Positions 5,964-15,208 of a DNA stretch of 64,000 nucleotides are shown here, in pieces. This DNA is from Rhodanobacter sp. DHG33. Lineage in GTDB: Bacteria; Pseudomonadota; Gammaproteobacteria; Xanthomonadales; Rhodanobacteraceae. The stretch is from assembly GCF_014843005.1 (NCBI RefSeq), contig NZ_JACYXM010000002.1:558001-622000 (forward strand), read 5' to 3'. Each line of letters opens with the position of its first letter. Position 1 is the stretch's first letter. The notes under the pieces are model-generated. The model ran no database searches, was not told the DNA's origin, and worked only from the letters and a program-made list of their open reading frames with translations. The position numbers were made by a program, and so were the translations under genes.

Positions 5964-8817
<2,854 letters not shown>

Positions 8818-8837
8818 TGCCGCCACCGGGCCATGCG

Positions 8838-9377
8838 TCAATCCTTGCGCTCGGTCTTGTTGTCGTCCCTGCAACTGCTCACTGAGGTCGCATCCATCAG
8901 CGCCGCATAAGGCTGGAATGCCGGCAGGCTGGTGGCGAGCTGGTCCTGGGCGTTCTTGATACCGGCCAAGTCGTCGCAGATCTTCATTGCCTGGTCAGTG
9001 ATCTTCTGGGTCTGCGCTTCGACGCGCTTGTCCACCGCGTCCTCGTCACCGTTGGCGGTTTCGGCCACGCCCTTGATCACTTCGGCCGCCATCCCCGCGC
9101 CGGCCCTTCCGGTCGCGATGCCGTGCTGGCGGATCGCGGTGGCATTGGCGTAGTAGCTGAGCAGCAGTTCGCGCTGATGCTCGTCGACGGCGACCTCCTT
9201 GCCGTCGACGCTCAAGCTGCCGCTCTTGTCAATGGTGGCCTCGGGGCCGCTATTGGCGCTTAGCACGACCAGATCGCCGCGCATGGTGATGTGGTCGTGG
9301 CTGGTGTTGCTGTCGCCATTGCAGCCGGCGAGCAGGGCGCACAGGGTGAGCAGCGGGAAAAGGTGTCGCTTGAACAT
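8838..9377 (-). CDS. YggN/DUF2884-like lipoprotein, paralogue 2
   Basis: A 179-residue predicted lipoprotein: MFKRHLFPLLTLCALLAGC gives a signal peptide with lipobox LLAGC (Cys at residue 19). The body has the DUF2884 (E. coli YggN) pattern: a negatively charged strand ITMRGDLVVL, then SGSLSVDGKEVAV followed by the helix start REQ/ELLLSYYANA, a helical region, and the C-terminal LPAFQPYAALMDA motif. It clearly resembles the lipoprotein at 10743-11453. It is the last gene of the leftward unit beginning at 14037, 37 bp after the hydrolase. Function of the family is unknown. Assignment from pattern recognition is moderately sure. Confidence 0.65.
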   Translation of the reverse strand: MFKRHLFPLLTLCALLAGCNGDSNTSHDHITMRGDLVVLSANSGPEATIDKSGSLSVDGKEVAVDEHQRELLLSYYANATAIRQHGIATGRAGAGMAAEVIKGVAETANGDEDAVDKRVEAQTQKITDQAMKICDDLAGIKNAQDQLATSLPAFQPYAALMDATSVSSCRDDNKTERKD

Positions 9378-9414
9378 GCGGATTTCCTTGCTTGTGGAGC
9401 TTGGGTGAAGGGGT

Positions 9415-10674
9415 TTACGCCGCGTGCTGCACGGGCGCGCACGGTGGGTGCGGCTGCTTGCGCGCATCCGGCGAGCGCCATTCCGGATGGTCGTAGGGAA
9501 TATCGTTTTCCCAGAACCACGGATAGCAGGTCGGTCCCAGCGTGGCATCGAGCAGATAGCGATACAGGCCTTCGGCATTGGAGCTGTTGCTCATGATCAG
9601 CACGCAGTTGCGCGACTCCTGCAGGCACAGCGCCAGATTGTTGGTGCCGTCGTCGTGGCCGGTCTTGAACCAGGCTGGCCCTTGCGCGGACTGGAACACC
9701 GTCACGCCCAGCGCAGTCGAGAGACGGATGCCGTCATTGTCGTGAGTGGTGTCGCTGTCCAGCGTGGGGAACTGCTGCACCGAATCGATGCGCTGCACCG
9801 GCTTCAGCCACTCGGCGCGCGCTTTCGCGCCGAGCCCATCGCCGCGCACCATGCCGGCCAGCAGCTGCGCATAGTCGCGCGGGGTCGTGTCCATCGAGCC
9901 GGCCGCACGCACGCTGCCGCGCCGCTTGTGGCCCAGCGGCTTGCCGTTCTCGTCGTAGCCAATGGCCAGGTTGTCGGCGAAATCGTCGCGCCAGGTCATC
10001 GAGGTGCGGCGCATGCCGAAGCGGTCGAACAGTTGCTTCTGCATCAAGGCCGCAACGTCGATGTGCTGGCCGTTTTCCAGCACGAACTGCATCAGGTTGA
10101 TGCCTTCGCCGGAATAGGCGTAGCGGCTGCCGGGTTCGACGTAGATCTTCAGCTTGCCGTTCGGGTCGTAGGCGGTGGCGCCCGGCGGGAAGTAGCGGAA
10201 ATTGGGAAAGCCGGCGCGATGGGTCAGCAGCATGCGCGGGGTGATCGCGCGCCAGCGCGGGTCATCGGCGAGGTCGGCGTACTTGTCGTAGTCGGGCAGG
10301 GGCTTGGGCAGCAGCTTGGCGATCGAGACATCGAGATCGAGCCTGTCCTGATCGAGCAGGCGCAGCGTGGCGTAGGTGAAGGCGGCCTTGGTGATCGAAG
10401 CCGCGTACATCACGGTGTCGACGGTGAGCGGCAGCTGCTTTTCGACATCGCGCTGCCCGTAGGCTTGCAGGTGCACGATCTTGCCGTTCTCGATCACCGC
10501 AAGGGCCACGCCGGGCACGTGCGCGGCCTGCATCAGGCGGGTGACTTCCTTGTCCAGCGCAGCCCCACGCAATCGGGCAGGGGCGGTGTTCTCGGCATGG
10601 ATTGTGGTGGCGAAGAGCAGGCAGCCACCCAGGAACGCTTTTGAAGCGAACGAAAACCCGCCGGCCGTACTCAT
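9415..10674 (-). CDS. Periplasmic serine hydrolase, beta-lactamase/class C fold
   Basis: A 419-residue protein with signal peptide (about residues 1-27, ending IHA-E). The serine beta-lactamase/penicillin-binding-protein fold is shown by the SxxK motif SITK at 93-96, the YSG triad YAYSGEG as the YxN equivalent, and KTGHDDG near the C-terminus as the third motif. Such class C-like proteins include esterases, D-aminopeptidases and transacylases as well as true AmpC enzymes; the YSG in place of YSN and the wide divergence argue against calling resistance. It lies between two YggN-like lipoproteins and behind an ABC transporter in one leftward unit, suggesting envelope maintenance. ATG 10674 starts the signal peptide directly. 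Confidence 0.82.
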   Translation of the reverse strand: MSTAGGFSFASKAFLGGCLLFATTIHAENTAPARLRGAALDKEVTRLMQAAHVPGVALAVIENGKIVHLQAYGQRDVEKQLPLTVDTVMYAASITKAAFTYATLRLLDQDRLDLDVSIAKLLPKPLPDYDKYADLADDPRWRAITPRMLLTHRAGFPNFRYFPPGATAYDPNGKLKIYVEPGSRYAYSGEGINLMQFVLENGQHIDVAALMQKQLFDRFGMRRTSMTWRDDFADNLAIGYDENGKPLGHKRRGSVRAAGSMDTTPRDYAQLLAGMVRGDGLGAKARAEWLKPVQRIDSVQQFPTLDSDTTHDNDGIRLSTALGVTVFQSAQGPAWFKTGHDDGTNNLALCLQESRNCVLIMSNSSNAEGLYRYLLDATLGPTCYPWFWENDIPYDHPEWRSPDARKQPHPPCAPVQHAA

Positions 10675-10742
10675 GATGCCTCCGTGGTGCATGGTGGGCG
10701 GTCCGCAGGGCGGAGATGCCCCGCGGCTGGCGGGTGGCGTAG

Positions 10743-11453
10743 TCAGTCGGAGAACACGACGGTGCCCTTCTTGCCGTTCTGATCCATGTCCTTGCCGCAG
10801 TCGTCGACGTCTTTCTGCGTCATCGTGGCGTAGGGTTGGAAGGCGGGCATCGCGGCGGCCAGCTTCTGCTGCGAGACCAGCATGTCGGGCAGCCGCTTGC
10901 ACAGGCGCAGCGCGGCGGCCTGGATCTGGTCGGTCTGCGGCTTGATGCTGGCCTCGATGTCCTTGTCGCTCTTGCCGAGGAACGCCCCCAGGATCGCCTG
11001 CTTGGCCGCAGCTACGCCGATGTCTGCCCCGCTAGCACCGATGTCCATGCCGGCATCGGCGATGCCGATGATCTGCTGGCGGTATTCCAGCAGCATGGCG
11101 TGCTGCTCGGGCGTGGCGTCGATCGGCTTGCCGGCGATTACCAGGGTGCCCTGCGGGGTGATGACCGCTTTGGGCAGCTTGCTGTCGTCGTCGCCATCGT
11201 CGTGCTGCTGCCCCTTGTCACGGAAGTGCACGCTGCCGACGCTGATGTCCTGGGTCAACAGCTCCTGCTTGGCCTGGTCGATGCCCTTCTGGACTTCCGT
11301 GTGGATGGCCGATGAGGAAATCTGCTGCTGCGCGTCCTTCACGGCTTGCGCCGCATTGTCGTTGGCGCCGTTGCTGGATGACTGGCTGCATGCCGTCAGC
11401 GGCAGCAGCAGGGCCAGTGCAAGGAAGCTGCCGGTGATCGTGTTGCTTTTCAT
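10743..11453 (-). CDS. YggN/DUF2884-like lipoprotein, paralogue 1
   Basis: A 236-residue predicted lipoprotein with signal peptide and lipobox LTAC (Cys at residue 22). After a low-complexity Ser/Asn/Gln linker and an acidic HDDGDDD patch it shows the DUF2884 layout: ITPQGTLVIAGKPIDATPEQHAMLL, a Gly/Ala-rich helical section, and MPAFQPYATM, shared with the smaller lipoprotein at 8838-9377. It follows the ABC permease by 33 bp and precedes the hydrolase by 68 bp in the same direction. Function is unknown; family members are outer-envelope proteins of Proteobacteria. The extended N-terminal part is absent from paralogue 2. Confidence 0.66.
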   Translation of the reverse strand: MKSNTITGSFLALALLLPLTACSQSSSNGANDNAAQAVKDAQQQISSSAIHTEVQKGIDQAKQELLTQDISVGSVHFRDKGQQHDDGDDDSKLPKAVITPQGTLVIAGKPIDATPEQHAMLLEYRQQIIGIADAGMDIGASGADIGVAAAKQAILGAFLGKSDKDIEASIKPQTDQIQAAALRLCKRLPDMLVSQQKLAAAMPAFQPYATMTQKDVDDCGKDMDQNGKKGTVVFSD

Positions 11454-11486
11454 GAGTAGGTTTCCCCGTATGGATTCGATGGGATA

Positions 11487-12446
11487 TCAGGTGTCATCGC
11501 GCCAGCGGCGCAACCAGATCGCAGCAGCCAGCAGGGCGAGGCCCGCGACGGCGCCGATCCAGAAGCTGGGCGTGGCCATCACGCTGTAGGCATTGCCCAG
11601 GTTGAGGAAGTCCAGCGTGTGCTCGGGACCGCCGCCCGCTTCCACGAAGTTCCGCTGACCCAGCCAGGTCCCCGGGAACACGCTGAGCAGGGCACGGGCA
11701 AATACATCGTGCCAGTACCAGCCGCCGTCGAAGATGCGTCCGCTCATCAGCTTGAACCAGGCCAGCACCATGCCGACTGCCACCGGCAGCACGGCTGCCC
11801 ACAGGAACGGCTTGCTGCGGGCCCAGGCGGAACAGAGCAGCAGCCAGCCGGCGCTGGGCAGCGCCCACAGTGCGTACAGCGGGATGGCGCCGATCAGGTT
11901 GGCGGTAACCCGGAACGGGTGCGCATAGGTCAGCAGGTGCCACAGGCTGACGCCATGGAACGACAGGGTGATGGCGAACAGCAGCAGCATGCCGATGCCG
12001 GTGAGCACGCCACAGACCACCGCGATCGCCGGTGCCAGCACGGTGCCGGCGACGACCTTGGACAGCACGGTGGCCGTGTCGGACAGCGGCAGCGATTTCC
12101 AGAACAGCAGGCTGCGGTCGCGTCGGTCATCGTAGAGCGCGCCGAGGAAATAGAAGAACACCACGAAGCCCAGCACGATGCTCGTGAACATGCTGGTGGA
12201 CAGCATCACGAAATCCAGCCCGACACCGATCCTGGTCGCGTCGTTGTCGCTCAGCGCGCGGTTGAGCAGGCCCATGTTGTTGCCGATGAAATCGCTGTGG
12301 GCATTGAAGTTGCCCAGGACTTCGCCGGCGACGATGCCCATCAGGTTCAGCAGCAGGAACACGCCGCCGGTGATCACCGGCGCCCACAGGAAGCCGCCGC
12401 GGTGTTCCCAGAACTCGCGTTTCACCAACCAGTAGAAGGTTTTCAT
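11487..12446 (-). CDS. ABC transporter permease (YtrA-linked type)
   Basis: A 319-residue integral membrane protein with about six hydrophobic segments (for example FLWAPVITGGVFLLLNLMG, SIVLGFVVFFYFLGAL, AIAVVCGVLTGIGMLLLF, FWIGAVAGLALLAAAIW). The cytoplasmic segment YDDRRDRSLLFWKSLPLSD is typical of ABC-2/YtrC-like permeases that sense or export envelope-active compounds. Start ATG 12446 overlaps the ATPase stop by 4 bases (ATGA), so the two are translationally coupled. Together they should form a 2+2 transporter. Substrate is unknown; YtrA-regulated transporters of other bacteria respond to cell-wall antibiotics, which is analogy only. Confidence 0.85.
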   Translation of the reverse strand: MKTFYWLVKREFWEHRGGFLWAPVITGGVFLLLNLMGIVAGEVLGNFNAHSDFIGNNMGLLNRALSDNDATRIGVGLDFVMLSTSMFTSIVLGFVVFFYFLGALYDDRRDRSLLFWKSLPLSDTATVLSKVVAGTVLAPAIAVVCGVLTGIGMLLLFAITLSFHGVSLWHLLTYAHPFRVTANLIGAIPLYALWALPSAGWLLLCSAWARSKPFLWAAVLPVAVGMVLAWFKLMSGRIFDGGWYWHDVFARALLSVFPGTWLGQRNFVEAGGGPEHTLDFLNLGNAYSVMATPSFWIGAVAGLALLAAAIWLRRWRDDT

Positions 12447-13300
12447 GCGTAGGTTCCTTTCATGGTGGCGACGAACAGGTCGCTGACGGAGGGCCGGCGC
12501 ACTTCGCCCAGCGCCTCCAGCTGCGCGCGTGCCGCGCCGTCGAACAGGAAGATGCTCTTGCCGAACACCTGGCGCTCGTCCATAGGCTTCAGTGCGCGGA
12601 CCTCGGCGGCGCGCTCGGCGCTCACCATCACCTCGGTGAAGCGTTCGCCCACGGCGTCCATGTCGGCATCCAGCACGATCTTGCCGTCGCGGATGAACAT
12701 CAGGTCGGTGAGGATGTGCTCGACTTCCTCCACCTGGTGCGTGGTGACGATGATGGTCTTGTTCTCGTCGAAGTAGTCTTCCAGCAGGCTCTGGTAGAAC
12801 TGCTTGCGATAGAGGATGTCCAGGCCCAGCGTGGGCTCGTCCAGCACCAGCAGGCGTGCGTCGATGGCCATCACCAGCGCCAGGTGCAGCTGCACGATCA
12901 TGCCCTTGGACATCTGCTTCACGCGCAGGTTGGGCGTGAGCTTGGTGCGGGCGAGAAAGGCTTCGCACTTCTTGCGGTCGAAGCGCGGATGCGTGTTGGC
13001 GACGAAGTCGACCGCCTCGCTCACGCGGATCCAACGCGGCAGCACGGCGACGTCGGCGATGAAGCAGACCTGCTCCATCAGCTTGCCGCGCTGCTTGCGC
13101 GGGTCGAGGCCGAGCACGTTCAACTCGCCCTGGAAATCGGTGAGGCCCAGAATGGCCTTCAGTGCAGTGGTCTTGCCGGCGCCGTTCGGGCCGATCAGGC
13201 CCACGATGCGGCCGGGCTGGATCTCGAAACTCGCACTATCCAGCGCGGCGGCGTTCTTGTAGCGCTTGCTCAAGCCACGGGCGGAGACGACGGCGTTCAT
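12443..13300 (-). CDS. ABC transporter ATP-binding protein
   Basis: A 285-residue nucleotide-binding subunit. Walker A is GPNGAGKTT (about residues 38-46), Walker B with catalytic Glu is LLVLDEPTLGLD, and the H-loop is TTHQVEEVEH. The signature motif is degenerate, MSKGMIVQL in place of LSGGQ, as commonly seen in YtrB-like ATPases. It overlaps the GntR regulator upstream (ATGA, 13297-13300) and the permease downstream by 4 bases each, so expression is tightly coupled. The C-terminal 70 residues are typical regulatory tail without motif. Confidence 0.92.
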   Translation of the reverse strand: MNAVVSARGLSKRYKNAAALDSASFEIQPGRIVGLIGPNGAGKTTALKAILGLTDFQGELNVLGLDPRKQRGKLMEQVCFIADVAVLPRWIRVSEAVDFVANTHPRFDRKKCEAFLARTKLTPNLRVKQMSKGMIVQLHLALVMAIDARLLVLDEPTLGLDILYRKQFYQSLLEDYFDENKTIIVTTHQVEEVEHILTDLMFIRDGKIVLDADMDAVGERFTEVMVSAERAAEVRALKPMDERQVFGKSIFLFDGAARAQLEALGEVRRPSVSDLFVATMKGTYA

Positions 13301-13671
13301 GCGTGCTTCTCCGGTTCGGACGGCGCTTCACGCAGCAGGGTCTTCAGGTCCAGGCCCAGCCGCTGCAGGCGGGCGTAAAGCGCAGGCCATTCCTCGCGCA
13401 GGAAACGCTCGCGTTCGGACTTCAAGAGTTCTTCACGTGCACCCTCGATGACAAACATGCCCAACCCCCTCCTTTTTTCAACCAATCGTTCATCGACCAG
13501 CTCCTGGTACGCCTTCGACACGGTCAGCGGATTGATCTGGAAATCCGCGGCCACCTGGCGCACCGACGGCAGCGGGTCGCCCTCGTTCAAGGCGCCATCC
13601 AGGATCATCGCCACCACGCGTTGGTGGAGTTGGCGATAGATCGGGATGCTGTCGTTCCAGGTGATGGTCAT
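13297..13671 (-). CDS. GntR-family transcriptional regulator, YtrA subfamily
   Basis: A 124-residue DNA-binding protein. Residues 8-75 form the GntR winged helix (PIYRQLHQRVVAMILDGAL, then LPSVRQVAADFQINPLTVSK as recognition helix region, then the wing RRGLGMFVIEG). The short C-terminal helical dimerisation part, rather than a ligand-binding domain, marks the YtrA subfamily, whose members usually repress the ABC operon they lie in. It is embedded between the small secreted protein (3-bp gap) and the ATPase (4-bp overlap). The palindrome at 14069-14090 is the obvious candidate operator. Confidence 0.93.
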   Translation of the reverse strand: MTITWNDSIPIYRQLHQRVVAMILDGALNEGDPLPSVRQVAADFQINPLTVSKAYQELVDERLVEKRRGLGMFVIEGAREELLKSERERFLREEWPALYARLQRLGLDLKTLLREAPSEPEKHA

Positions 13672-13674
13672 GGA

Positions 13675-14037
13675 TTATTCCTTGCTGCTGGTGCTCGTGG
13701 TGGTGCCAAAGGAATAGTAGGGCATGGCCAGTTGCGCCCCGATCTGCGCGCCGGCGCCGTTGGCGATACCCACCGCGGCGTTTTCCAGCATGGAGGCGGC
13801 CTTCATGTCGGCGCTCGAGGGGGTGACTTCGACGGGAGCCAGGTTGGTCACGTGGATGCCGTTGATCCAGGCAACCGGGGCGGCGTGGGTCGTCGGCAGG
13901 GTGACTGCGGCCAGGGTCAGGCTGGTCATGACCACGGCGGCGGCGGAGGCGATCCAGCGGCGGGCGGGGACCAGGGTGGTGGCGAATACGTCGCTGGTAG
14001 CGGCGGCCGGGTTATGGGTGCTGAGCTTCGCGTTCAT
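13675..14037 (-). CDS. Small secreted protein leading the YtrA-ABC operon
   Basis: Unrecognised 120-residue protein. ATG 14037 is preceded by AGAGGAGC at good spacing. A long n-region (about 27 residues) leads into the hydrophobic segment WIASAAAVVMTSLTLAAV ending THA-A near residue 52, so it is exported or membrane-anchored. The mature 68 residues contain INGIHVTNLAPVEVTPSSAD, a short extended motif of a kind seen in small Xanthomonadales envelope proteins, then an Ala/Gly-rich helix and a Ser/Thr tail. As first gene after the regulated promoter it is likely the most highly expressed member and may be a sensor or partner of the transporter. That role is inference only. Confidence 0.68.
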   Translation of the reverse strand: MNAKLSTHNPAAATSDVFATTLVPARRWIASAAAVVMTSLTLAAVTLPTTHAAPVAWINGIHVTNLAPVEVTPSSADMKAASMLENAAVGIANGAGAQIGAQLAMPYYSFGTTTSTSSKE

Positions 14038-14068
14038 GGCATTGCTCCTCTGGTGAACTCGTTGTGTG

Positions 14069-14108
14069 GTGTTGTAGTGAACTATAACACCGACTTTTGA
14101 CCCGTCAA
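14069..14108 (-). promoter_or_regulatory. Promoter of the YtrA operon with overlapping 22-bp operator palindrome
   Basis: Reading leftward, TTGACG (14108-14103) and TATAGT (14086-14081) are separated by 16 bases, a good sigma-70 promoter about 45 bases before the first start codon. A 22-bp dyad at 14069-14090, GTGTTGTAGT-GA-ACTATAACAC (one mismatched pair per arm), covers the -10 element. A repressor bound here would block the promoter. YtrA-type autorepression is known for the subfamily; that this regulator binds here is inferred. Confidence 0.7.
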
Positions 14109-14251
14109 GCGAAATCTGCAGCTTTGGCAACATGACTGATGGCAGGGGTGCCCAGATCGGCACCGGACCCGTACCGGAACGGGGATGAATCCGAAACAAT
14201 CCGGCAATAAGCTGGCTGGATCGAATCTGTTGTTCGGAACAGGAAACGACC

Positions 14252-15208
14252 ATGACGCAATTGGTAGGCGCGCTGCAGGACCTCAACGATCTCTATTTCT
14301 TCGCTGCAGTAGTCGAGCACGGCGGTTTTTCCGCAGCGGGACGGGCGCTGGGCATGCCCAAGTCGCGGCTCAGCAAGCGGGTGGCCCAGTTGGAGGACCG
14401 GCTTGGCGTGCGCCTGCTGCAGCGGACCACGCGCCGCTTCGTGGTGACCGAGGTCGGCGAACGCTTCTATGCGCATTGCCGCGCGGTGCTCGAGGAAGCG
14501 CGCGCAGCCCAGGCGGCGGTGGACGAATTGCGCGCCGAGCCGCGCGGCGTGGTGCGGCTGAGCTGTCCGGTGTCGCTCACCCAGACCGTGCTTGCCCATG
14601 TGCTGCCGGACTTCATGGCGCAGTACCCGCGCCTGCAGGTGCGTGTGCTGTCCAGCAACCGCCGCGTGGATCTGCTCGGCGAGGGATACGACCTCGCCAT
14701 CCGCGTGCGCAGCAAGCTCGATACCGACGCCAACATGGTGGTGCGCAGCTTCGGCCAGTCGCGCGTGCTGCCGGTGGCCAGTCCCAAATTGCTCGACACG
14801 CTGGGGCGCCCTGAGCATCCCGGTGAGCTGGCGAAATTTCCCGCGCTGTCGATGCAGGAGCACGAGGGGCCGCAGACCTGGGAGCTGATCGACGCGGCGG
14901 GCGAGCGCGTGAACGTGGAAGTGAATGCGCGCCTGATCTGCGGCGATTTCGCCGTGTTGCTGGAAGCGGCGCGACGCGGCCTCGGCGTGACCCTGCTGCC
15001 GGAATTCGTCTGCGCCCCGGCCGTGACCAGCGGCGACCTGGAAGTGCTGCTGCCCGAGTGGAGCGCTCCGGAAGGCACCATGCACTTCATCTACCCCAGC
15101 CGCCGCGGCATGCTGCCTGGCGTGCGCGCGCTGGTGGATTTCCTAGCCGAGCGTTTGCCCGCCACCACCTTGAGCAAGCACGAAGAGTGCAGGAAGCGGC
15201 CGGTGTGA
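14252..15208 (+). CDS. LysR-family transcriptional regulator
   Basis: A 318-residue LysR regulator with N-terminal winged helix (LNDLYFFAAVVEHGGFSAAGRAL, then RLSKRVAQLEDRLGVRLLQRT, about residues 10-65) and a periplasmic-binding-protein-like effector domain. The wording of the effector domain, with GEGYDLAIRV and ARRGLGVTLLPEFV, is that of the AaeR/DsdC-like or CrgA group that controls divergent or neighbouring redox and aromatic-compound genes. No such target lies next to it: the divergent operon is the YtrA-ABC unit and downstream is ybdL. ATG follows AGGAAA. Target unknown. Confidence 0.9.
   Translation: MTQLVGALQDLNDLYFFAAVVEHGGFSAAGRALGMPKSRLSKRVAQLEDRLGVRLLQRTTRRFVVTEVGERFYAHCRAVLEEARAAQAAVDELRAEPRGVVRLSCPVSLTQTVLAHVLPDFMAQYPRLQVRVLSSNRRVDLLGEGYDLAIRVRSKLDTDANMVVRSFGQSRVLPVASPKLLDTLGRPEHPGELAKFPALSMQEHEGPQTWELIDAAGERVNVEVNARLICGDFAVLLEAARRGLGVTLLPEFVCAPAVTSGDLEVLLPEWSAPEGTMHFIYPSRRGMLPGVRALVDFLAERLPATTLSKHEECRKRPV

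Follow-up and report, generated by a model that had tools for sequence, protein, structure and literature searches.

The seven genes between positions 8838 and 14037 of the window (the 64,000-nt stretch of Rhodanobacter sp. DHG33 DNA that was analyzed) are probably best explained as an envelope-response operon of the YtrA type. A core of a leader protein and an ABC transporter would be repressed by a GntR-family regulator and combined with interchangeable cargo genes, and the unit may sense and counter envelope damage. We prefer this explanation because core and operator are conserved and the operator matches the YtrA motif of X. citri, because the operon resembles ytr of B. subtilis, because the operator recurs at secondary sites in relatives, and because yggN belongs to the sigma-E regulon of E. 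coli.

Anatomy of the operon and its putative operator

The features of the operon are as follows:

14081-14108, minus strand: sigma-70-type promoter, TTGACG-16-TATAGT (promoter scan)
14068-14091, minus strand: putative operator, 24-bp palindrome GGTG-N16-CACC over the -10 element (conservation; X. citri YtrA motif)
13675-14037, minus strand: leader, small membrane or exported protein of 120 aa, with VTNLAPVEVTPSSAD from residue 63 and MPYYSFG from residue 105
13297-13671, minus strand: GntR-family regulator of the YtrA type, 124 aa (PF00392)
12443-13300, minus strand: ABC ATPase (PF00005; Walker A GPNGAGKT, signature SKGM, Walker B LLVLDEP)
11487-12446, minus strand: ABC-2-type permease, about six membrane segments by hydropathy (ABC2_membrane_5 below cut-off)
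10743-11453, minus strand: first DUF2884 (YggN-like) lipoprotein (Pfam; lipobox LTAC22)
9415-10674, minus strand: serine hydrolase of the beta-lactamase fold (PF00144; SITK93, YSG187, KTG337)
8838-9377, minus strand: second DUF2884 lipoprotein (Pfam; lipobox LAGC19; nearest to copies of genus g20)

The original prediction had described seven genes reading in one direction, with gaps or overlaps from -4 to 68 bp, behind one promoter with an overlapping palindrome. The reading frames, their order and their common strand proved to be real, and the junctions (+3, -4, -4, +33, +68 and +37 bp from the leader onward) stay within this range. The promoter was confirmed at 14108-14081. Its -10 element is covered by GGTGTTATAGTTCACTACAACACC, a palindrome that is nearly perfect and occupies 14091-14068. 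A scan of positions 8700-14400 gave one promoter-like site, compared to 0.8 expected in shuffled sequences. An internal promoter within the MPYYSF codons was also considered and was dropped since the scan returned the upstream promoter alone. No terminator-like site was seen in any intergenic gap of the seven genes in the same scan, including 11453-11487, where a terminator would have split the unit. From the spacing, the cargo genes are presumably co-transcribed with the core.

The regulator matched GntR (PF00392) with 54.6 bits over residues 12-74 of its 124 aa. The C-terminal region of only 50 residues after this domain fits the YtrA subfamily, and so would the long palindromic operator (about 24 bp) at the regulator's own operon. 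Among solved structures, 3tqn (113 aa) was its best relative, with a match spanning residues 3-113 and an E value of 3.6e-38. The ATPase scored 72.9 bits with ABC_tran (PF00005), and the permease reached 21.4 bits with ABC2_membrane_5, which is under the Pfam cut-off of 25.

A palindrome with at least 10 of 12 matching arm positions was present in 113 of 114 Rhodanobacteraceae regions versus 1 of 116 control windows; two of the 116 family regions (L146 and L149) have too little upstream sequence and were left out. In the sole miss (L041), the operator falls outside the scanned stretch. TTGAC occurred at one identical spacing in 109 of the 113 family operators. Outside the family, 98 genomes had a GntR match, and all 40 of the regions taken from these, representing ten families, contained the operator. 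Among the loci listed, from at least 120 operator stretches, it lay upstream of a GntR homologue in 69 of 80. The palindrome of the window fits GGTG-N16-CACC, the motif of X. citri YtrA (Zhou et al. 2017, as quoted in PMC6746942). The assignment to the YtrA type is supported, and the operator is deeply conserved. A genome scan revealed no second operator copy in this strain.

Fixed core and variable cargo

The GntR gene and the ATPase gene adjoined the permease gene in 115 of 116 Rhodanobacteraceae regions, and in the only exception (L146) the region is truncated where its contig ends. Of 121 genomes from the order, 117 had a GntR match. The genes downstream varied: DUF2884 was found in 66 of the 116 regions, the hydrolase in 16, and neither of them in 42 (37 if five regions that end early are left out). 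The order lipoprotein-hydrolase-lipoprotein occurred in 5 of 116 regions, including the window, and hydrolase homologues with 74% (G002) and 67% (G115) identity are located away from the locus. Judged by gene content, leader-GntR-ATPase-permease is the fixed unit and the cargo is lineage-specific. The original prediction had treated the seven genes as one co-occurring unit and had named the separate occurrence of the trio and the YtrA-ABC genes in relatives as evidence against it. Because of the cargo-free cores, the rarity of the trio and the off-locus hydrolases, this is largely the situation we found, and one conserved seven-gene module was ruled out by the cargo counts. The YtrA-type regulator, the envelope setting and a tie of lipoproteins to the same switch were supported.

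For these last two points, the genomes of relatives were informative. The family genomes contain 26 further operator sites, 19 of which precede HlyD-type efflux-adaptor lipoproteins. An AcrB-type pump follows 7 of the 19 adaptors, and none was present behind the other 12 within the flanking DNA examined. The remaining seven sites precede an exported protein some 290 aa long (five sites), an ABC ATPase (one) and a DUF2884 gene (one). This lone DUF2884 gene with its own operator copy, found in one relative, links the lipoproteins to the same switch. The envelope setting is further supported by the presence of E. coli yggN in the sigma-E regulon, as listed in PMC2731931. Since only one operator was found in the genome of strain DHG33, the link to efflux is seen in relatives only.

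The two lipoproteins of the window scored 37.9 (first) and 56.4 bits (second) with DUF2884 (Pfam cut-off 30.6) and share 33% identity over 132 aligned positions (E 2e-16). Lipoprotein signals were recognized by motif in both, and a hydropathy segment was seen in the first only. We know of no function assigned to DUF2884/YggN. Modelled with a pLDDT of 81, the first lipoprotein consists mainly of long helices, one of 45 residues. Its best Foldseek match had an E value of 1.1. Its best VIA match had a Z of 9.1 at an rmsd of 5.9 over 150 residues, which helical bundles can reach by chance. A search by sequence for solved DUF2884 relatives gave none that was convincing (best E 0.16). An extracellular solute-binding role, for which a two-lobed periplasmic-binding fold would be expected, was suggested for DUF2884 in PMC11237479.

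Could the cargo be a unit of its own, an unrelated lipoprotein-hydrolase island before fumC with its own expression next to the YtrA-ABC core? The variability of the cargo is in line with this. In a tree of 106 DUF2884 sequences (107 copies were counted; stretches under about 90 residues were left out), the second lipoprotein grouped only with three copies from genus g20 (100/100), apart from the second copies of its congeners. Identity to four g20 copies amounts to 81-88% for the hydrolase and only 54-55% for the permease, so the block seems to have been exchanged. However, the ATPase of the same four g20 copies is also 86-88% identical, and slow evolution together with loss elsewhere could therefore account for the hydrolase. 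Two units are also difficult to reconcile with the common strand, the tight spacing, the gaps free of promoter-like or terminator-like sites, the DUF2884 genes that follow the core in more than half of the regions and also in X. arboricola, and the same operator at a lone DUF2884 gene elsewhere. We consider this arrangement improbable.

It is even harder to believe that the operon exists for the sake of the hydrolase, as an enzyme of beta-lactam resistance or cell-wall editing, with the other genes in its service. Class C beta-lactamases carry the motifs SxxK, YxN and KTG. The hydrolase scored 147.3 bits with Beta-lactamase (PF00144), its SITK93 and KTG337 agree with two of these motifs, and by eye its N-terminus resembles a signal peptide, which would all suit such a role; no segment exceeded the threshold of the hydropathy scan. 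But YSG187 replaces YxN, the NCBIfam model for class C was far from reached (55.4 versus a cut-off of 415 bits), and the gene is absent at the locus in most regions and in all seven other congeners.

The leader protein

By the rule applied to reading frames, a leader was present in 111 of 116 regions, and an MPYYSF-type motif in 114 of 115. In L130, a wrong reading frame of 60 aa was picked as the leader, and the motif is nonetheless present. The leader is fast-evolving, while the tail motif is near-invariant. An N-terminal membrane-type segment in 110 of 111 leaders makes it doubtful that this protein, predicted as small and secreted, is indeed secreted; it is small. The structure model is of low confidence (pLDDT 65) and shows helices at residues 26-45 and 75-95. 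A conserved KE/KD end (83 of 111 leaders) was discarded as a protein feature since it mostly reflects the Shine-Dalgarno sequence of the next gene (AAGGAATAA-like).

The leader of the window matched no Pfam or NCBIfam family, and no model of either collection was above cut-off in 41 leaders. Below cut-off, Pfam matched 1 of the 41 weakly (E 0.0074) and the NCBIfam model XAC0231_fam matched 6 (best E 5e-9). Two of these six were traced when 25 of the 41 were scanned singly, and both were weak (E 0.0016 and 0.0079). In the genomes, XAC0231_fam gave two weak matches at the leader itself (G008 and G023), and all others lay elsewhere. Because of these two matches, the families may be distant kin, possibly through a VRPSA-type stretch. 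By eye, operators were seen before XAC0231 genes at 6 of 13 loci, the six with a readable upstream stretch. No paper printing MPYYSF, MPYFSF or MPFFSF was found in the literature searched.

One tentative idea, which we regard as possible though doubtful, is that the MPYYSF leaders belong together as a family of small membrane proteins that spans the order and is so far undescribed, and that they serve the YtrA-ABC system as its dedicated sensor or control subunit. They would signal envelope or transporter trouble to YtrA in place of a small ligand, and in Xanthomonadales the same switch would couple the ABC transporter with efflux adaptors and pumps as well as with DUF2884 lipoproteins.

The leader could instead be the substrate, exported by the transporter as a processed peptide with an MPYYSF tail. 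Pmt transporters export phenol-soluble modulins and are under control of the GntR regulator PmtR. PmtA was the best NCBIfam model for our ATPase (135.3 bits, cut-off 350) and PmtR (51.8 bits, cut-off 200) was second after PdxR (59.1) for the regulator, all far below the cut-offs, so that the Pmt models were not reached; the fast evolution around a near-invariant tail would suit a peptide. Against this, a membrane or signal segment is already present at the N-terminus of the leader itself. Moreover, in 8 of the 9 Oxalobacteraceae-titled loci among those listed, the operator lies 46-103 bp before the GntR gene, with no room for a leader (430 bp in the ninth, L260). All eight keep the ABC pair, so the transporter can do without a leader, and we give export of the leader little credence.

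Least credible is a function of the leader as a regulatory nascent chain, whose translation or stalling near MPYYSF would tune translation of the GntR gene. In 92 of 110 regions, 2-5 nt separate the leader stop from the GntR start, and in 100 of 110 a Shine-Dalgarno-like stretch is found between this start and the last leader codons. Codon choice within the motif is unusually uniform (the second Tyr is TAT in 97 of 110 regions and Pro is CCC in 102 of 110), whereas conserved GntR and ATPase columns mostly use CCG for Pro, and TAT leads in one of six Tyr columns (54%). Between families, though, the motif is retained in the forms PYF, PFF or PYY, which looks like selection on the protein. A regulatory RNA fold at the leader-GntR junction was also sought, and nothing unusual was found around the GntR start (mean z 0.12, 19 sequences).

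Known systems and proposed function

According to PMC12772383, the ytrGABCDEF operon of B. subtilis encodes YtrA and ABC proteins together with a small membrane protein, and inhibitors of the lipid II cycle induce it; the inducer of YtrA is given there as unknown. The operon of the window likewise joins ABC genes to those for a YtrA-type regulator and a small membrane protein, and the leader would take the place of YtrG, to which it is likened by position and type only. B. subtilis YtrA also controls ywoBCD (membrane protein, hydrolase and transporter), just as the operator described here marks efflux genes in relatives. Unlike ytr, the operon of the window is limited to a single ATPase and a single permease, lacks a second module (YtrEF), and contains a serine hydrolase and DUF2884 lipoproteins in addition; two ATPases and an FtsX-family YtrF were not among its seven genes.

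The original prediction did not recognize the gene combination as described. In fact, operons that unite a GntR regulator with an ABC ATPase, a permease, a Toastrack protein and a DUF2884 lipoprotein have been published (PMC11237479), and the operon of the window is a variant of them, sharing all but Toastrack (DUF4097), which Pfam found in none of its seven proteins. It differs in having two DUF2884 copies and the hydrolase; 'beta-lactamase' is absent from the main text of that paper, and its relevant parts mention neither leader nor operator. The published layout, with DUF4097, is seen at locus L164. The X. citri YtrA regulon, as quoted in PMC6746942, shares the operator with the window, and GntR homologues with 67-68% identity lie under an operator at Xanthomonas loci L252 and L279; unlike for this regulon, only a single copy was found in the genome of strain DHG33. 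In ClnRAB of C. difficile, a GntR repressor with its own ABC genes responds to the membrane-active peptide LL-37 without conferring resistance, and no leader, lipoprotein or hydrolase is described for it in the parts concerned (PMC6117091).

Some of these comparisons count against our preferred explanation. B. subtilis ytr gave no consistent protection from antibiotics, and its authors prefer cell-wall homeostasis over defense (PMC12772383); ClnRAB illustrates that GntR-ABC operons can serve other ends; and the efflux link was seen in relatives only. A further counterpoint is HpaR1 of X. campestris, a member of the YtrA subfamily, which reportedly works as a global regulator and activates genes.

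For the YtrA-type envelope-response operon, we infer repression, signal, substrate, membrane topology and hydrolase activity within the following scheme. A GntR dimer on the operator over the -10 element would keep the operon, including its own gene, switched off. Release would follow a signal, most likely a disturbance of cell-wall precursors or the membrane, or a toxic amphiphile. The leader would be anchored in the inner membrane with its C-terminal MPYYSF outside and, by analogy, may be a YtrG-like accessory subunit or a sensor of the transporter. One ATPase and one permease would build the ABC-2 transporter, which is assumed to act as a dimer, and the DUF2884 lipoproteins and, in this strain, a periplasmic serine hydrolase would be interchangeable cargo.

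The locus bears on the question of how YtrA-type repressors, with their very small effector domain, sense trouble at the cell wall or membrane. The order-wide operator could be used directly as a reporter and points to a candidate regulon that comprises the ABC transporter, DUF2884 proteins and efflux adaptors, with DUF2884 linked to the same switch outside the operon in one relative. It also exposes a near-invariant small membrane protein that is cleanly deletable. YtrA sensing and the function of DUF2884 thereby become directly testable in soil bacteria of the Rhodanobacteraceae.

The seven-gene unit and its conserved core

The original prediction of a promoter with a palindrome, followed by seven closely spaced genes, was borne out: all elements lie on the minus strand (14108–8838). 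The main features are:

14068–14091, 24-bp palindromic operator, overlapping the promoter −10
8838–14108, minus strand, core genes for a leader protein, a GntR regulator (YtrA type), an ATPase and a permease, then cargo genes for a DUF2884 lipoprotein, a hydrolase and a second DUF2884 lipoprotein
13708–13725, codons of the MPYYSF motif near the leader C-terminus

The unit is flanked by a divergent LysR-type gene and the convergent fumC, both named by inspection. The regulator has 124 residues and aligned across almost its full length with its best solved relative, 3tqn. Walker motifs are intact in the ATPase, and the permease shows about six membrane segments. Both lipoproteins passed the DUF2884 cut-off and carry a lipobox. 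The hydrolase has a beta-lactamase fold with SITK, YSG and KTG motifs and scored far under the NCBIfam cut-off for class C beta-lactamases.

A search with the permease against 117 Rhodanobacteraceae genomes gave a match in 116, and the best-match regions of the 115 others were compared with the window. The permease was adjoined by the GntR and ATPase genes in 115/116 regions, the exception (L146) being truncated by a contig end. Identity to the window in the seven other congeners was 87–100% for GntR, 88–96% for the ATPase and 66–85% for the permease. Within the order Xanthomonadales, the GntR gene was found at E 1e-20 or better in 117/121 genomes and 53/56 genera. Since a fumC-like gene was present in 92/116 regions and a purB-like ORF cluster in 78/116, the site of the locus is an old one, probably inherited for the most part. 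Locus L262, on a contig titled Candidatus Eremiobacteraeota, contains the unit with a GntR 88% identical to that of the window and a Dyella-like leader; this contig is probably misbinned.

The operator and the leader protein

At least 10 of the 12 arm positions of the palindrome GGTGTTATAGTTCACTACAACACC were matched in 113/114 scanned family regions and in 1/116 control windows. The sole miss, L041, has a tandem pair of permease genes inside one copy of the unit, and its operator lies at G009:C35:14179, beyond the scanned stretch. TTGAC stands at an identical distance from the operator in 109/113 family regions, and the promoter spacer in the window is 16 bp. The window palindrome exactly fits GGTG-N16-CACC, the motif that PMC6746942 quotes for a YtrA-like regulator of X. 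citri.

The operator was also present in 40/40 regions from ten other families, drawn from 98 genomes with a GntR match. A collection-wide scan gave at least 120 stretches; among the 80 listed, 69 were upstream of a GntR homologue, 5 were cut and 6 were other. These six comprise L270, L272 (the same place as L373) and L274 before adaptor lipoproteins, L245 with the GntR gene on the opposite side, and L218 and L271, which stayed unassigned. Carriers include Xanthomonas arboricola, X. phaseoli, Stenotrophomonas, Rhodanobacter, Dyella, Luteibacter, Duganella and Massilia. At six loci of Duganella, Massilia and Aliikangiella (L208, L215, L233, L240, L276, L281), the operator lies 46–91 bp before GntR, a gap too short for a leader gene, and an ABC pair follows.

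The leader, encoded by the first gene, is a fast-evolving protein of about 83–164 residues. A membrane-type segment is found at the N-terminus of 110/111 leaders and a MPYYSF-type motif in 114/115 regions; a stricter motif pattern matched 109/116 upstream windows and 0/649 control windows. Among 12 Xanthomonadaceae leaders, the form is mostly (M/V)PYFSF. In some other families it is PFFSF or PYYDF, the remainder having small membrane proteins without the motif. A Pfam search of the leaders gave no convincing match, XAC0231_fam was the only NCBIfam hit (6/41, under the cut-off), and the motif was not found in the literature searched. In B. subtilis, too, a small membrane protein, YtrG, is encoded together with YtrA and ABC genes in one operon, according to PMC12772383. 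Synonymous codons within MPYYSF are unusually fixed (TAC TAT, CCC, many TTT) in the window and 110 family regions, a pattern that would fit an overlapping DNA or RNA element.

Variable cargo behind the permease

One to three DUF2884 genes follow the permease in 66/116 regions and the hydrolase in 16/116; the cargo order of the window occurs in five (window, L068, L069, L074, L075). Neither gene type was found in 42/116 regions; less than 2.5 kb of sequence was available past the permease in seven regions, five of them among these 42. Among the other cargo of relatives are DUF4386 and DUF6326 proteins and a PDZ protein.

The hydrolase is absent from the locus in all seven other congeners, and homologues are found off-locus in genomes G002 (74% identity) and G115 (67%). 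In the DUF2884 tree, the first lipoprotein of the window clusters within its own genus. The second groups with three sequences of genus g20 only (support 100/100), separate from the second copies of the congeners. Compared to four g20 copies, the hydrolase is 81–88% and the permease 54–55% identical. Since their ATPase is likewise 86–88% identical, block exchange is a likely origin of the second lipoprotein but no more than a possible one of the hydrolase.

GntR-ABC-Toastrack-DUF2884 operons are described in PMC11237479, where a solute-binding role alongside the transporter is proposed for DUF2884. This layout is seen at the Xanthomonas-type locus L164. The predicted DUF2884 structure (pLDDT 81) consists mostly of long helices, a model that does not favour a binding-protein fold, without settling the matter. 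The following are new as far as our searches go: an operator conserved across the order, the family of leader proteins, exchangeable cargo that includes the hydrolase, and the connection with efflux adaptors. The X. citri YtrA study (Zhou et al. 2017) may hold part of this.

Operator sites elsewhere and the proposed function

The pattern RGTGTNNTAN6TANNACACY matched 106/117 family genomes, 19 of them more than once, and the reversed control pattern matched one genome. Outside the compared regions 28 sites were found. Two belong to the main operon itself on a separate contig: G025:C8, assigned by the permease start position, and G056:C138 (L380).

Genes behind the remaining 26 putative operator sites
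HlyD-type adaptor lipoproteins, directly behind the operator (19): L370–L378, L384, L385, L387, L392, L393, L397, L399, L400, L402, L405
Exported ~290-residue proteins, genus g15, alike by eye, one incomplete (5): L395, L398, L401, L403, L404
Lone DUF2884 gene (1): L379
ABC ATPase (1): L394

Adaptor identity was assigned by Pfam for 5/19 and by tblastn (51–77% identity) for the other 14. An AcrB-type pump follows immediately in 7/19 (Pfam on two of the pumps). No pump was found behind the other 12 in the available sequence, which is short for eight; a different gene is next in L370 and L372–L374. The exported protein of L395, the one scanned, had no Pfam match. The genome of the window has one operator site; a looser half-site pattern gave two extra sites, as did a control pattern. 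Small exported proteins of the XAC0231 family, with repeats like TLATVQVRPSADQ, are encoded elsewhere in Xanthomonadaceae genomes, and GGTG-N16-CACC lies just upstream of their genes in 6/6 readable loci (L325, L326, L327, L329, L334, L336; ~1446–1470).

Putative operators thus precede the ABC core, DUF2884 and adaptor genes, and this one type of switch would tie all three together in relatives, not in the genome of the window. An envelope setting is suggested by the induction data from B. subtilis, by the listing of E. coli yggN in the sigma-E regulon (PMC2731931) and by the adaptor and pump genes that relatives carry next to this operator. For Salmonella, sigma-E is reported to bind at yggN, at a site that lacks a recognisable consensus (PMC4577112), and the B. 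subtilis authors favour cell-wall homeostasis over antibiotic defence (PMC12772383). GntR probably covers the −10 and would repress the operon, its own gene included, until a signal of envelope disturbance relieves repression. The transporter, with help of the leader, would then probably move or flip a harmful or lipid-linked compound, and the lipoproteins and the hydrolase would probably work in the periplasm.
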